Source: Tieghemiomyces parasiticus | Lineage: Eukaryota > Kickxellomycota > Dimargaritomycetes > Dimargaritales > Dimargaritaceae | Direction: 5' to 3' | Assembly (NCBI GenBank): GCA_027575765.1 | Contig: JANBPT010001118.1 | Coordinates: 1 to 14,126, forward strand | Length of the DNA stretch: 14,126 nt | Shown here: positions 3,403 through 11,295 of the stretch, one piece after another | Numbering within the stretch: position 1 is the stretch's first letter | Layout: each line of letters starts with the position of its first letter | Position numbers and translations under genes: made by a program | Notes under the pieces: generated by a model | Databases searched by the model: none | What the model was told of the DNA's origin: nothing | What the model saw: the letters and a program-made list of their open reading frames with translations, nothing else

Positions 3403-5811
3403 ATGTCTTACGTTCGCCGCTTCGCCGGCCTACGGACGCCCGGTCTGGGCCTCACTCGTCCAGATACCGGTGCTCTGCGTTCCGCACTGCCCCGCCCTAG
3501 CGCTCTTCCCGCTTCCTTCACCCTGCGTCCTTTTACGCGGTCCTCCCTCTGGGCCAAATCCACGTCCGACTCTGACGATAAGAATGCCGCCCACCGCGCC
3601 GACGTTCCCAAGGGGTTCGGCCGATTCACCGAGGGCGGCAATGAGGACGCCGCTGCCGAGTCGGCCAAGGGAACGGGCAAGAAGGACGATAGTTCCCCGT
3701 CCGCTGATGGCAAGCAGCCCGAGGGCGAGAATGCACCGCCCAAACAGTCGCGAGCCGGGGCGGCCAAGGACGACGGCTTTCCGTCCTTCGAAAGCCTGCA
3801 GTCCAAGTTCCAGCAGTCGATGGGCGGTAAAGACGGTCCGGGTTCCGCAACCCTCCTCCTGCTGCTCTCGGTCGCGGCTATCTCCATGCTCGATCTACAA
3901 GGCTCCCAGCGCAAGGAAATCACTTGGCAAGAGTTCCGCGCCCAGCTACTCGACAAGGGCCTCGTAGACCGGCTGACCATCGAGAACCGCCACGACGTCC
4001 TGGTGGATCTCAGTCCCGAGGCCGCCAGCCTGCTGGCCGGCCAGCCCGGCGGCGCCGACCTCGCGCGTTACAGCCGCTTCTACTTCACTATCGGCTCCGT
4101 CGATAGCTTCGAGCGCCAGCTGGAGGAGGCCCAGAATGATCTCCAGATCCCGTCTAGCCAACGCATCCCCGTGCTTTACCGCGAGCGGGTCAGCTGGGCC
4201 AGTACATTGCTCCACCTCTCACCCACTTTGCTCCTGATCGGCGCCTTCTTCATGATGTCCCGGCGCGCCGGTGGTGGGGCCGGGGGTGCCTCAGGCATCT
4301 TCGGCGTGGGCAAGTCGCGCGCCAAAATGTTCAACCAGGAGAGCGACATCAAGGTCAAATTTAAGGACGTGGCCGGCATGGACGAGGCCAAGGAGGAGAT
4401 TATGGAGTTTGTCAAGTTCCTCAAATCCCCCCAGAAGTACGAGCGCCTGGGGGCTAAGATCCCCAAGGGCGCCATCCTGAGCGGCCCCCCCGGGACGGGT
4501 AAGACCCTCATCGCCAAGGCTACCGCCGGCGAGGCGGGGGTCCCCTTCCTCAGCGTGTCAGGGTCCGAGTTTTTGGAAATGTTCGTTGGCGTGGGCCCGT
4601 CGCGCGTTCGCGACTTGTTCGCCACCGCCAAGAAGAACACGCCTTGCATCATCTTTATCGACGAGATTGACGCCATCGGCAAGTCTCGCGAGCGCAGCTC
4701 CCGCTTCGGCGGTGGCAACGACGAGCGTGAGAGCACCCTCAACCAGCTACTGGTGGAGATGGACGGCTTTGAGTCGCACCAGCACGTGGTCGTGTTGGCC
4801 GGTACCAATCGCGCCGACGTGCTCGACAAGGCCCTGATGCGTCCCGGTCGTTTCGACCGCCACATCGTCATCGATCGCCCGGATATTCAGGGTCGTGTAG
4901 ACATCTTCTTGGTGCACCTGCGCCCCATCAAGACGGGCGAAAATGTGAACCACATTGCCCGCAAGATGGCCGCCCTAACCCCAGGCTTCGCCGGCGCGGA
5001 TATTGCCAACGTGTGTAACGAGGCCGCCTTGATCGCCGCCCGCACGCGGGCCGACACCGTCCAGGAGAAGCATTTTGAACAGGCCATCGAGCGCGTGGTG
5101 GCCGGCCTCGAGAAGAAGTCCCGCGTACTCTCCCCCGACGAGAAGAAGACGGTGGCCTACCACGAAGCTGGCCACGCCGTCGCCGGCTGGTTCCTCGAGC
5201 ACGCCGACCCGCTACTCAAGGTGTCCATCATCCCACGGGGGTCGGCTGCGCTGGGCTACGCCCAGTACCTACCCAAGGACCAATACCTCTACTCGACCGC
5301 CCAACTGCATGACCGCATGTGCATGACCCTGGCCGGACGTGCCGCCGAACAGATTTTCTTCAAGGTTATCACCACCGGTGCTGGCGACGATCTGCAGAAG
5401 GTGACCAAGAACGCCTACGCCCAGGTCGCCGCCTACGGTATGAACAGCGTGATTGGTAACGTGTCGTTCGAGGACAGCTCCAACCCCGAGCCGCGGTACC
5501 AGAAGCCCTACTCTGAGGAGACGGGCCGCCTGATTGACCACGAGGTGCGCAAGATGGTCTCCGAGGCCTACGATCGGACTGTCAAGTTGCTCACCGAACA
5601 TCGTGACGGGGTGGAGCGTGTGGCCCTCAAGCTGCTAGAGAAGGAGGTGCTAAACCGCGAGGATATGGTGGAGCTGCTGGGCAAGCGCCCGTTCCACCAG
5701 AAGACTCAGTATGAGGAGTACGTGCTCCGTGAGCCTTCCTCCAATACTCCCCCGACCCCAGAATCGCCCGCTACTGACCCGCCGGCCGATCAGCCCCCGC
5801 GGGCGGAGTAA
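3403..5811 (+). CDS. AFG3: Mitochondrial m-AAA protease subunit, AFG3/Yta10-like (FtsH family)
   Basis: This is an ATP-dependent zinc metalloprotease of the mitochondrial inner membrane with its active domains facing the matrix. The family degrades misfolded membrane proteins and matures some imported ones. In the 802-residue product, residues 1-50 are rich in Arg/Ser/Ala/Leu with almost no acids, as in a matrix-targeting presequence, and a charged low-complexity linker follows. Membrane segments lie near 149-163 and 268-285, flanking a small intermembrane-space domain. The AAA domain has Walker A GPPGTGKT at 361-368, Walker B with DE at 420-421, and the second region of homology RPGRFDR at 480-486. 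The peptidase has HEAGH at 587-591, with the expected third zinc ligand Asp in GDDL, likely D663. Length and motif order match the family, and all key residues are present. The NDERE-LNQLL segment and RPF near the C-terminus look more like Afg3/Yta10 than Yta12, but the paralogue call is less sure than the family. The ATG at 3403 opens the targeting sequence. No intron is needed. Confidence 0.97.
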
Positions 5812-7163: not shown

Positions 7164-8020
7164 AACTGTCCACTGGCCGCACAGCCTAGGAACTTTTTTG
7201 ATTTATTTTACTTGCCCTGGGCTTTTCTAGCGGGCACCAACTTTTTTTTGGTCCTTGGACCACTCCAGTTGCCACCTCGAGGAGTGAAGAAAGCAGCCGT
7301 AGGGTTGACAGGCAGCTGGGAGTGACTAATCAACCCAGCTCATGATGTCCCCACGGTAGAATGCTCTTGGCGGCAGCCGTTGGGGCCGCCCGGTGACCTA
7401 AACCGTTGTAAGCCACACTGCTTTGTTGTAAAGTGCCCCGGCGGGTCGAGAGGATCATAACTATTTAGGGCTGGGAGACCGCAGATGTGACGGGCGGAGT
7501 GCTCATACCATCTTTTAATCATACTTATGTAATTAGACGGCCAGCCGGGGGGAGATGAGGTTTGCAATTAAGTTTTGGTCACACGACCCAGGACGGCCTA
7601 TGTCAACAGGCAAGCATTTGACTGAGGCGATGTCAAAATGATGCTGATGGAAAGGCTACTAAGCATCATAAGTTTAAGTAAAATAAGCCGGGAAAAGCGG
7701 CCCCAAATGGCCGTAGGACATACTATTATTATCAAATGAGTCTGCACCATGCAATGATGGATATCACACCACCCGTGTGTAGTATTTTGTGGAGTATGTC
7801 CCGTGTATTAGTGTTTCGATGGAAGCGGATTTTACGTTTAATGAGCCGAGTCATTCGCGTGTGCATTTGTGTAGATGAAGCTATGACAAAGTGGGAATGT
7901 TAGCAGAATCGTAAAAGGTCGAGCCTATTAGTATGTTGCCACACAGCAGGCTGCAGTTATTCATTACATATCTTAGATGAGGCTTCTCTGCCCAGCCGAC
8001 TCGCCTCTAGGGTGCCTCCC

Positions 8021-8040
8021 CTCCATTGCATCGCATGGAG
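8021..8040 (-). other. Hairpin 60 bases downstream of the Fanzor stop
   Basis: Read on the minus strand, CTCCAT at 8040-8035 pairs with ATGGAG at 8026-8021. GC/GC inside the loop can extend the stem to about 8 bp with one bulged A. In Fanzor and TnpB loci the omega guide RNA lies at or just past the 3' end of the nuclease gene, so this is the right place for such a structure. The hairpin is small, and nothing else here identifies a guide RNA. Confidence 0.25.
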
Positions 8041-8101
8041 AGTGGCCAGAGTAGCTTTGCTTTTGTCACATCTTAGCGCTGCGATAACAGGGCCGGAAAG
8101 T

Positions 8102-10310
8102 TCAGTATGGACCTGGTGGGGAACTGCCTTTGTACCGGCACTTCACCTGCGGCTTCTGGTCGGCAGTAGTAGAGGCCTTGCGCTTTGCAGCCTTGGCAGG
8201 TGCCAGGCCACCACCACCACCATCATCCTGGGACTTTGCACACCGAAACTGTTCCAAAACCTTGATGTTGGCCTGGAAGTTCAAGAGGAGGTGCCTGACA
8301 TTGATCCCTGCTGTCATATACCAGTTCCACAGCTGCAGGTGAGCTGGTTCCCTAGCATATTCTATAGACTTCAAACAATTTAGGTTTATACACCTTAGAA
8401 GCCCACAGCTTTTGACTTCAGGGTGCTTTGTTCACTGCCATGGTCATGGATTGGGGACATGCTTGAAGGTCTCCAGGTGGTTGCAGCACTCAGGACAGGT
8501 CCTGGATGTGTGGTACTCATCCACCAGATAGACCTTACATCCATGCTTCTTGAACATTGCCCATCAGCCTTTGTCATGGATGGGCTCATGGTAGTGAGCT
8601 ATGGATGTGGACCAGTTTCCCATGATGAGTACTGTGTCCTTGCCAAGCCTGCGACATAGTGTGTACACCAGCCAAGCATCAGCCTGCCTCTGGTTGATAT
8701 AGGCAGAGAGTCACAATTTCCAATGGGGTGGATAATTGTTTTCCCCATGGCCAGTATATATATGCATCTTTCTGGCCTGATGCTTCCCCCAGTCACCCTT
8801 CACTGGGCTGTATTTGTGCATGGGGTGCATCAAGGTCATATGAGTAGTTGTGGTCCTGCTGTAAAAGCTGCTGAGCAGCAATCATTCCCTTTGTGGTGAT
8901 TGGGAACCACCACATTAGATTATCCTAGGGTAAAGTCCAATTCTGCTATTTCAGAACTATAAATTCTGTGATAGTAGAATAGCCTTTTGGTATGGTATTA
9001 GACTTAGACCTAATATCAACACACCCTTACTCACACCTCAATGTAGAGCTTGTACCTGGTGGCATTGATAATGCTGCAGCATACCTGTGTCAGCCTAGCT
9101 TTGGCATTTTGAATGGTGTGTATGTAGGAGAAGTCTGCAGAGTGGTCATTCCTGTACTGCTTCCTTTGAGTGTCCTGGTTCCCCATTCTGTCAGCCTTAG
9201 ACTTGCCCTTGGGCTTCACTGCACTATCATTGGCAGCAACCCCATCAGCATCAGTCTAGCTTTGCTTGCAACTAAGGTTCCTCTTTGTCTTGGGGGTCTT
9301 GAGTATGAATGATACAGACACCCCACCTGTCTGGATAGCCCTTAAGAACCTCCTGCCATGCTGGTCCTTGAATGCCTTGGAATGAAAGTGAAGAGCCACT
9401 CCCCCCCCATGTCTCCTTGATCAATGGCTCATTCTTGGATGCCCACTTTAGGATATGCTGGCAGAAGATCCACATATCTATGTGCAGGTGGCATGGCACC
9501 CAAGAAATCTGGAGAAGAAAGCACTGGACTGACTTTGCCTCCCTCACCTCCAGGAATTTGCAGAGCTCCTAGAATTCCTGAAGATGTGTTTCTAGAGATT
9601 TCTTGACATCATAATAAATGTCATCCTCAAAAAACACATAGGTGCCATCATACACTTGGAGGATTGGTAATAGTGCAGTGAGGATGAGCTGCCCTTCTGG
9701 TGGGACCTTGCTGCAATCAGGGTCTCTGTATTGCAGTGCCTCCTTGACCTGGCATGCTGGCCTCCAGATCCTCTCCTCACAGGCATGGTGGAACTCATGT
9801 TCATTACTGTTGGCCATTTCCTTGGGCAGAGCCTCCTTCCACTGGCACATGATCAGCAGGGTATTGCCAGTACACTGGAAGTACTCACCAAACCACAGCT
9901 GGACATTGACTTTGTACACAGTCATGATATTGGTGCCATAATAGACTGCCACCTGGGACTAACTTCTGTGTTTCCTAGGCTTAATGTTGGCAGCCTTTGT
10001 GTAGCCTTCAAGGTGTCTCTTAATGAGCACCCTAATGGCCTTGGTTGACAGCTTGACCTTCTCATGCATGATCTTCCTCCCAGCCAGGCTGAGGAAAATT
10101 TGGTAAAAGAATGCCTGGCTGAAGAGCTCACTGGGGTTGAAGTCATGGTTCCTCTCCAACTCATGGAGGAAAATTCAGCATACCAGCTGGTATGTGTGTT
10201 GTGAGAAAGTGGGTTGTCCGCACCAGATCCTCCTGTGACTCCTGATACTTCCACTTCCACCCAACAGACCACAGAGAGGTCTTGATGACGCTAAACTTGC
10301 CTTGGGCCAT
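8102..10310 (-). pseudogene. Decayed Fanzor (TnpB-like RNA-guided nuclease) gene
   Basis: An intact copy would encode an OMEGA nuclease that cuts DNA directed by a guide RNA. I pieced it together by reading the minus strand across breaks. The likely start is at 10310, and IKTSL (10286-10272) is the typical Fanzor opening, followed by HTYQL near 10203. Next come VQCF with SWVPCH and CQHIL (9529-9449), then SKAFKDQHG running into GGVSVSF (9381-9301). YIHT lies at 9126-9115, YINQRQADA at 8701-8675, GNWS at 8620-8609 and HEP near 8590. A zinc ribbon follows DEYHTS, with a C-x2-C pair (8497-8486) and a C-x4-C pair (8392-8375). A WN--MTAGIN RuvC-III segment ends near 8303, then a Gly/Lys-rich tail to the stop at 8104-8102. 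Stops lie at 10177, 9961, 9571, 9258, 8713, 8566, 8446 and 8434. There is a 2-base deletion near 10200, a one-base gain in the G8 run at 9401-9408, and a frameless zone at about 9030-8880. The RuvC-III Asp reads Tyr. The order of motifs makes the family call firm; the gene is certainly dead as read. Confidence 0.88.
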
Positions 10311-10432
10311 CAATGGCGTAGTAAAGGCCTTAGTAATTGCACAGTAAGGGGAGTGCTGAGCTCAATGAAAAGGGCAAAGAGACAAGCTGTGTAAGGAGCT
10401 AAGGGGAGGGCACTGAGGCTATTAATGGGTCA

Positions 10433-10453
10433 GTGTCCCCCTTGTGGGGACAC
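10433..10453. repeat. Perfect palindrome GTGTCCCC / GGGGACAC upstream of the Fanzor start
   Basis: GTGTCCCC at 10433-10440 and GGGGACAC at 10446-10453 flank the 5-base spacer CTTGT. Outside the arms, GGTCA near 10428 and TGACC at 10463-10467 are also complementary, suggesting a larger imperfect inverted structure. It lies about 125 bases upstream of the Fanzor ATG (the gene points left). It may be the element's terminus, a transposase or regulator binding site, or chance; sequence alone does not decide. Confidence 0.6.
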
Positions 10454-11295
10454 CACATTTATTGACCAGTGAAAACCATTGAACATAGAGCTGGTCGGCC
10501 TTGCTAACTAACTTGTCACCTATATTTTCTCTTTTTTTCGTTGGGGTCTCCCACCCTCACCGTTTACCCCACGCCTACACTTCCCCTTTTGCTGCGCGCA
10601 AGTCCTCTTAGCTCCTTTAACAACTTCTCCATTATTCTCTTTACCCCATATTGTTGCGACCAGTTTAGCCGGTCTCCCATCATAATGTACCGAGTTTTCT
10701 TAAATAAATTGTCGTGCAGGTAATAAAGGCATTAGGGCGGTTTTTTAAAAAAAACGATGGGAAATAGCAGGGTTCACTACACAGCCGTAGTCCGAAGGGT
10801 AGGATGGGTGGCCTGGGTATATTCCGAGCCTGGTAGAACGAAATGGGTCCAGTATTAATGAGGTATTTAGAAGAGACGAGGAGGGAGGGCACGCAAGGAA
10901 GAGGTATGAGTGAAGGGATGGGAGGGGAGTCATGAAGAGAGGCGGGAACAGGCGGAGGAGGCGACAGTGGAAGTGGTGCGGAGCGAAAGAAGATGCGAGC
11001 GATACCAGTCTAGCAACAAACAGGGATTAAGTGGAAGTCCGTACACAAAATATATCTAGCGTGCAAACGTAGAAAACTAAAAGCGCGAGGGCGCTAAATA
11101 GGCGTGACACCAAAGTAACAGGCCGATGAGGGGGCGAGAAAGAGAAAACTAACGGATCCAAGCAATTAAACCAAATGAAATCTATAGGGGCGAAAGGTAT
11201 GAGGGGGTACAGGGCGCTGGTGGGGGAGGGTGGGCGGAAAGGACGGCGGGTATATGTAACTATAAGGCAAATGGAGGGAGTGGGGATAGAGAGAG
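10454..11295. other. Gene-free region between the Fanzor relic and the KH gene
   Basis: No gene is supported. 10501-10740 is C/T-rich on the + strand and starts with GCTAACTAAC followed by a pyrimidine stretch, which looks like a fungal intron branch point and tract, although no exon can be assigned. A T6A8 stretch lies near 10741-10754. From there to 11295 the + strand is purine-rich. The last part is the 3' flank of the minus-strand KH gene ending at 11296. Confidence 0.5.

Follow-up and report, generated by a model that had tools for sequence, protein, structure and literature searches.

A dead Fanzor1 gene in the remains of a mariner-like element of Tieghemiomyces parasiticus, with erased CpG, likely copying of dead sequence and a likely cross-phylum history

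The window analysed here, a 14,126-nucleotide stretch of the fungus Tieghemiomyces parasiticus (contig JANBPT010001118.1, C134 below), raises the question of what the interrupted coding sequence on its minus strand is, how it was inactivated and where it came from. Fanzors are eukaryotic proteins related to the bacterial ancestors from which CRISPR nucleases arose. The original prediction, made from the sequence, was that the window holds a Fanzor relic in a fungal genome, and this identification was borne out. Two features were needed to follow it:

8102–10310, minus strand: Fanzor1 pseudogene, read in frames 3-1-2-1.
8375–8521, minus strand: DEYHTS motif and zinc ribbon (CPEC ... RC-INLN-C), with two in-frame TGA stops.

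The read-through of the minus strand from 10310 to 8228, with X at stops, matched two Fanzors among the PDB chains, Parasitella parasitica Fanzor1 (E 2e-74) and the Spizellomyces Fanzor (E 7e-22). The same read-through matched four proteins in a large protein database, the best being P0001 of the Mucorales mould Dichotomocladium elegans (E 2.9e-209). Because its frames had been picked by hand, the fair control was a mechanical six-frame search of the genome with P0001, which returned C134 at 8231–8899 (E 9.8e-85), 9401–10060 (E 1.2e-80) and 9109–9405 (E 6.5e-25). Together, the PDB, protein database and six-frame matches to Fanzor1 are far beyond chance. The Pfam family PF07282 matched at 8459–8551 with 26.3 bits, exactly its cut-off and in the zinc ribbon only; in hmmscan the whole read-through (23.4) and P0001 (17.8) were both below the cut-off.

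All the predicted landmarks were found on the minus strand in the order claimed, from MAQGK at 10310 through IKTSL, HTYQL, VQCF/SWVPCH/CQHIL, SKAFKDQHG/GGVSVSF, YIHT, YINQRQADA, GNWS/HEP, DEYHTS-CPEC and GLLRC-x4-C to WNWYMTAGIN, with the last in-frame stop at 8102. As anticipated, no single open frame crosses the gene, whose reading takes three frames and includes stops, and the nine single short minus-strand frames gave no Fanzor family, in agreement with the expectation that gene callers would miss it. The motif [TS][TS]xx followed by a C4 zinc ribbon, described for Fanzor1 in a section of PMC3627910, was present (TSRT-CPEC and RC-INLN-C, in one frame with two stops between). Judged by its sequence, the window gene is a Fanzor1 by descent and a pseudogene rather than a working Fanzor; the membership is by descent only because the RuvC-I aspartate (DPG) is deleted. 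This deletion, a 133-bp foreign element at 8892–9023 and the greater extent of the surrounding transposon (7721–10727) went beyond the original prediction.

9108–9121, minus strand: junction at which approximately 90 bp, including the RuvC-I (DPG) segment, were deleted, from the copy alignment (gap near 9113–9119).
8318–8329, minus strand: RuvC-III site, WNRD changed to WNWY, from comparison with Fanzor rows (RD absent in the window).
8887–9028, minus strand: 133-bp MITE (8892–9023) with the 5-bp duplication AAGGG on both sides, from repeat comparison.

The reading frame changes near 10190, near 9402 and between 9031 and 8890, and there are in-frame stops besides, among them the zinc-ribbon TGA codons at 8446–8444 (Arg572 of P0001) and 8434–8432; the four zinc cysteines are retained. 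The RuvC-I segment deleted in the window is kept in four other copies of the gene, as DPG in L035 and L042 and as DLG in L033 and L038, and the fifth aligned copy, L032, runs into a MITE there. About 40 residues that follow RuvC-I in P0001 are, on our reading of the alignment, absent from the window and the four covering copies, and part of this stretch is also missing from one Rhizopus row. The comparisons showed that both RuvC-I and RuvC-III are lost in the window copy. We give almost no credence to the idea that the gene is functional and that its apparent breaks are introns, recoding or sequencing errors: a GTGAGT after YIEV, just ahead of the MITE, would taken on its own allow an intron, and against it stand the loss of both RuvC sites, a stop in the conserved NPRPW motif in 8/8 copies and a second-haplotype contig that is broken too, differently.

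The 133-bp repeat belongs to a family with the ends TGTGYTGAT...ATCACCACA and at least 41 matches in the genome (best 40 of 365 candidates scored). Fourteen of its copies, 12 full and two partial, lie in the window and in the Fanzor loci L032, L034–L041, L043 and L044. The 5-bp duplication matches in five of the 12 full copies; the seven without it border on gaps in the Fanzor sequence, as if the insertions promoted neighbouring deletions. The copy in L035 sits at window position 9377, a point at which its partner L032 is uninterrupted. An intron-making element was considered and rejected for this repeat, which we call a MITE, as no evidence of splicing was seen and seven of the 12 full copies stand at such gaps.

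The gene lies within the remains of a larger element:

7721–10727, minus strand: remains of a mariner-like element, as delimited by the ends that sister copies have in common (right end retained at 7721).
7721–8289, minus strand: 3' part common to the high-copy 1.26-kb derivatives, from sequence comparison.

The left approximately 36 bp beyond 10727 are missing in the window copy and in its partner contig (L034). In sister copies the left end reads TA|CWGTATTTTGCA, with the TA in 9/10 rows (the window and L034 having no left end), and the right end reads TGCAAATAATAG|TA, with the TA in 9/13 rows. The element thus shows terminal inverted repeats flanked by TA, as a Tc1/mariner element does. The left-end pattern had 107 genome matches at three or fewer mismatches and its reversed control had none. 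No transposase family was identified in the nine minus-strand frames of the element region, and none of the 39 DDE_3 matches elsewhere in the genome was tied here to the ends of the Fanzor element. A 413-aa transposase in L036 was considered as the element's own and rejected, as it has different terminal repeats and is nested at a TA. That nested element is a 1.4-kb mariner with 24-bp inverted repeats (L036 4742–6177 in Fanzor orientation, G000:C569), inserted in the relic, and its 413-aa frame is open despite an internal MITE that adds 138 bp, or 46 codons, in frame.

A family of approximately 1.26 kb carries both ends of the Fanzor element together with the terminal portion of its coding sequence (from window 8289). 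Its high-copy members L025 and L027–L031 consist of the 3' approximately 570 bp of the Fanzor element and, on the left, of approximately 690 bp of other sequence. These elements are possible candidates for guide-RNA carriers. The consensus fold of 16 right ends had 33 pairs, six of them with two-sided change, and covariation contributed −1.1 of −18.73 kcal/mol; the case for a conserved guide RNA at the right end is weak.

The original prediction had also treated the relic as pointing to active relatives elsewhere in the host genome, and this was not supported. Searches of the genome with P0001 (36 matches on 15 contigs, 31/31 candidates scored) and with a Coemansia Fanzor (17 matches, 17/17 candidates scored) recovered only the one decayed family. 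The 14 loci read, namely the window and L032–L044, lie at eight insertion sites and are all broken, with a longest stop-free Fanzor frame of 232 codons, and no intact copy was found in the assembly. C721 carries a further short piece, which was left out, and the count of DNA copies is a lower bound, from the best 40 of 422 candidates scored in the first DNA search. For a long open frame one has to go to another phylum, where the nearest such copy is the 656-aa P0001 of Dichotomocladium.

Six of the eight insertion sites occur twice, with flanks 92–97% alike, and the gene AFG3 of the window has a second copy, 99% identical, on C457, the contig of the window's partner L034. From these two observations the assembly probably contains two haplotypes. 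Many genes were matched twice on separate contigs, such as C134/C457, C422/C592 and other pairs. The same-site partners are L037/L041, L040/L044, L042/L043, L032/L035, L036/L038 and the window/L034; their Fanzor bodies are differently deleted, differently related and 84–91% alike within the 92–97% alike flanks. These differences between partners reflect active exchange or repair at the relics.

The most general lesion of the family is the loss of CpG:

8245–10218, no strand assigned: CpG-erased gene body with one CpG, at 8652, from the CpG count.

The ratio of observed to expected CpG is 0.03 in the window gene (MITE excluded) against 1.06 in AFG3 and 1.02 in the neighbouring KH gene, and 0.02–0.19 in the other 13 loci (MITEs and part of the ends included). 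The ends of the element keep their CpG (0.73 and 1.04), as do the high-copy derivatives with the same ends (0.72–0.92 in five elements and one piece), a pattern that plain transposon silencing fails to explain. CpG loss is also no proof of death, since the nested mariner with its open transposase frame is CpG-poor (0.29, MITE included). In the coding sequence the loss falls on arginine, whose identity to P0001 across copies is 26%, each other residue being at 49–83%. Among the 454 aligned arginine cells, R is kept in 117 and replaced by H, Q, W, C or a stop in 290; arginine positions account for 29 of the 72 stops. At the 61 arginine sites covered by at least four copies each, we counted 147 CAN, 132 TGN, 111 AGR, 8 CGN and 55 other codons. 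The AGR arginines, which lack CpG, serve as an internal control for CpG decay: CpG-free arginines are mostly kept and CpG-containing ones are not.

Repeat-induced point mutation follows repetition and in Neurospora is mainly CpA to TpA. In its classic form it was rejected here, on account of the CpG-specific spectrum and the CpG retained in the high-copy derivatives; the flanks that are 92–97% alike and have normal CpG are probably haplotypes and hence no test of it. A protein with BAH and C5-methyltransferase domains is encoded on C422 and C592, with DNMT1 as its best PDB match (E 9.7e-87). Given this DNMT1-type gene, deamination of methylated cytosine would be the likely cause of the CpG loss. 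Counting against methylation decay, a 2026 review describes, in the portion that deals with them, 5mC as near-undetectable in the early fungi listed there (PMC13297926).

Instead of one element having decayed unevenly, younger mariner-like ends could have captured a Fanzor body that was already a fossil. Over 10/14 loci, bodies (10303–9747) differed by 13.8% between sites, with 3.7% of the differences of CpG type, and 3' ends differed by 22.2%, with 14.1% of CpG type, as if the body had already lost its CpG while the ends still had theirs; these ends are also common to the 1.26-kb family. That family includes the last Fanzor coding part and fits equally well if it was derived from the Fanzor element, and we regard capture as the less probable history, though one of some weight.

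The lesions are in large part common to copies at different sites. At 19 of 32 arginine sites the CpG product is identical at every independent insertion scored and at 13 it differs, leaving aside cells other than TG or CA and sites at which haplotype partners disagree; independent mutation predicts 1.7 concordant sites, with a maximum of 8 in 20000 simulations. Arg572 is TGA in 8/8 copies and at 6/6 sites, a tally that treats L036 and L038 as two sites although the comparison of flanks joins them, and Gln143, Tyr172 and Arg576 have stops in 6/8 copies each. One common MITE-and-deletion junction is found in L039, L040 and L041, whose three sites have unrelated flanks, and the partners L037 and L044 have other junctions; the bodies of L033 and L042, also at different sites with unrelated flanks, are 98–99% identical. 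Over 10303–9747, the bodies of haplotype partners are hardly closer to each other than to copies elsewhere. Dead sequence was thus likely copied on from one site to another, whether through transposition in trans, through gene conversion or through gap repair.

The idea that all the common lesions came from a dead founder was rejected, as sequence exchange among copies was found; such exchange can also explain common lesions, so that death before spread is unproven. The converse history, in which an active element spread, its copies were inactivated separately and lesions became common later only via gene conversion, agrees with the 13/32 arginine sites at which the product differs, with several private stops, with the exchange seen in partner bodies set in more similar flanks and with 5/6 partner pairs in which, over 10303–9747, the two bodies are nearer to each other than to copies elsewhere by less than 0.01 or not at all. 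We consider it the less probable history, though again one of some weight, since near-complete concordance at many sites, as for the TGA at Arg572, would require conversion that swept all of them. Copying of already dead sequence remains the preferred reading.

The origin of the family was approached through the neighbouring gene:

3403–5808, plus strand: AFG3 (M41 protease), used for host placement.

In a tree of 31 rows picked from 120 listed, which included Lichtheimia and had no Dichotomocladium row, the window AFG3 grouped with Dimargaris and Dispira (100/100), which places the contig in the Dimargaritales (Kickxellomycotina). The Blyttiomyces AFG3 is 59% identical to that of the window. 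The best-scoring foreign match, P0006, labelled Entrophospora sp. SA101 (77% over 58%), was placed with Glomeromycota. The Dimargaritales attack mostly Mucoromycota hosts, according to the part of a 2023 review that treats them (PMC10386755).

The Fanzor trees told another story from AFG3. In a tree of 43 rows, for which 42 of the 71 Fanzor proteins recovered were combined with the window, the latter paired with D. elegans (100/99) within Coemansia and Dispira rows, and the pair was stable in trees of 15 rows (100/99) and 14 rows (100/100), although the window row is decayed and of odd composition. The Mucorales as one clade were rejected (AU p 3.2e-6), as was a window grouped with Coemansia apart from Dichotomocladium (AU p 1.7e-6) in the 14-row test, whose clade was named after a tree had been seen and from which Dispira was omitted because it had changed sides between the 43-row and 15-row trees. 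Contamination is disfavoured by the contigs of the two Dichotomocladium sequences, 413 kb for P0001 and 2.06 Mb for a second piece, P0182. With a Dimargaritales host by AFG3 and a Fanzor that is sister to a Mucorales copy, the trees point to a likely horizontal transfer between the Dimargaritales and Mucorales lineages, in either direction.

Without any transfer, Kickxellomycota and Mucorales would both have inherited an old Fanzor1, which most Mucorales would then have lost. A passage of PMC10432273 states that Fanzor1 is widespread among fungi, and Halteromyces and Benjaminiella rows stand apart from Rhizopus, which implies more than one Mucorales Fanzor lineage. The Fanzor path from the window to Dichotomocladium, 0.62–0.66 even as lengthened by decay, is nevertheless shorter than the AFG3 path from the window to Lichtheimia (approximately 1.67 as a sum of branch lengths), the Fanzor path from the window to Coemansia is approximately 2.2, and the vertical groupings were rejected by the AU tests. 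We therefore hold vertical descent to be improbable and retain transfer as the preferred reading. Sections of PMC10432273 and PMC10711439 propose, in general terms, that Fanzors have been transferred among eukaryotes. Among open-licence PMC papers, we found none on Fanzor with Zoopagomycota or with Dichotomocladium and none on transposon transfer with a mycoparasite and Mucorales.

Taken together, we conclude with reasonable confidence that the window holds a dead Fanzor1 in mariner-like remains, that its CpG codons became TpG or CpA, likely by deamination, and that the dead sequence was likely copied on. The live ancestor would have been a guide-RNA-directed DNA nuclease that aided the persistence of its transposon, and it likely moved between the Dimargaritales and Mucorales lineages, perhaps through contact of mycoparasite and host. 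A DNMT1-type methyltransferase would then have marked the Fanzor element, and deamination would have turned its arginine codons into those of His, Gln, Trp and Cys and into stops. Dead copies may have been mobilized in trans by a mariner-type transposase, or overwritten by gene conversion or gap repair, and MITE insertions with adjoining deletions would have eroded them further. A bolder version, which we offer tentatively and think the less probable, is that the Fanzor transposon jumped between the mycoparasitic Dimargaritales and the Mucorales on which they prey, that a CpG-directed mutational defence, not so far credited to such fungi, killed it in the parasite lineage and that it spread further while dead, the nuclease being dispensable for this spread.

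These findings offer two definite lineages, linked by an ecological route, in which the movement of Fanzors among eukaryotes can be tested. Dead copies that were copied between sites bear on whether the spread or persistence of a transposon requires its Fanzor, and, in a fungal phylum that has been little studied, the CpG pattern opens cytosine methylation of transposons to testing. The kind of element, a Fanzor1 in a mariner-like element, is already known and the interest lies in its history; specialists may look again at the likely cross-phylum origin, at the CpG-directed inactivation and at how dead sequence was copied from site to site.

Among known systems, the closest to the window gene is its sister in the three Fanzor trees, the hypothetical protein BX666DRAFT_1063248 of Dichotomocladium elegans (P0001), which is 60% identical over 534–537 columns. 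Unlike the window gene, P0001 has both DPG and WNRD in a frame of 656 aa, and its N-terminus as annotated does not line up with the register of the relics. The Fanzor1 of Parasitella parasitica (PpFz1, PDB 9cf0) aligns in two stretches, one N-terminal and one comprising the C-terminal RuvC and zinc ribbon. As reported in the relevant section of PMC11423790, PpFz1 cuts DNA in vitro, whereas the window copy has stops and lacks the RuvC-I and RuvC-III residues. The Fanzor1 proteins of Coemansia (e.g., P0125–P0141) come from the same subphylum as the host and are the nearest surrounding rows in the 43-row and 14-row trees, yet they are far from the window, with a path of approximately 2.2 against 0.62 to Dichotomocladium in the 14-row tree. 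In organization, the closest parallel is the Fanzor1-only Mariner elements of Bao and Jurka 2013 (PMC3627910), which, in the description of them that we drew on, likewise have a lone Fanzor gene between TA-flanked mariner-like terminal repeats; set against the elements described there, every one of the 14 copies that we read is dead and CpG-erased.
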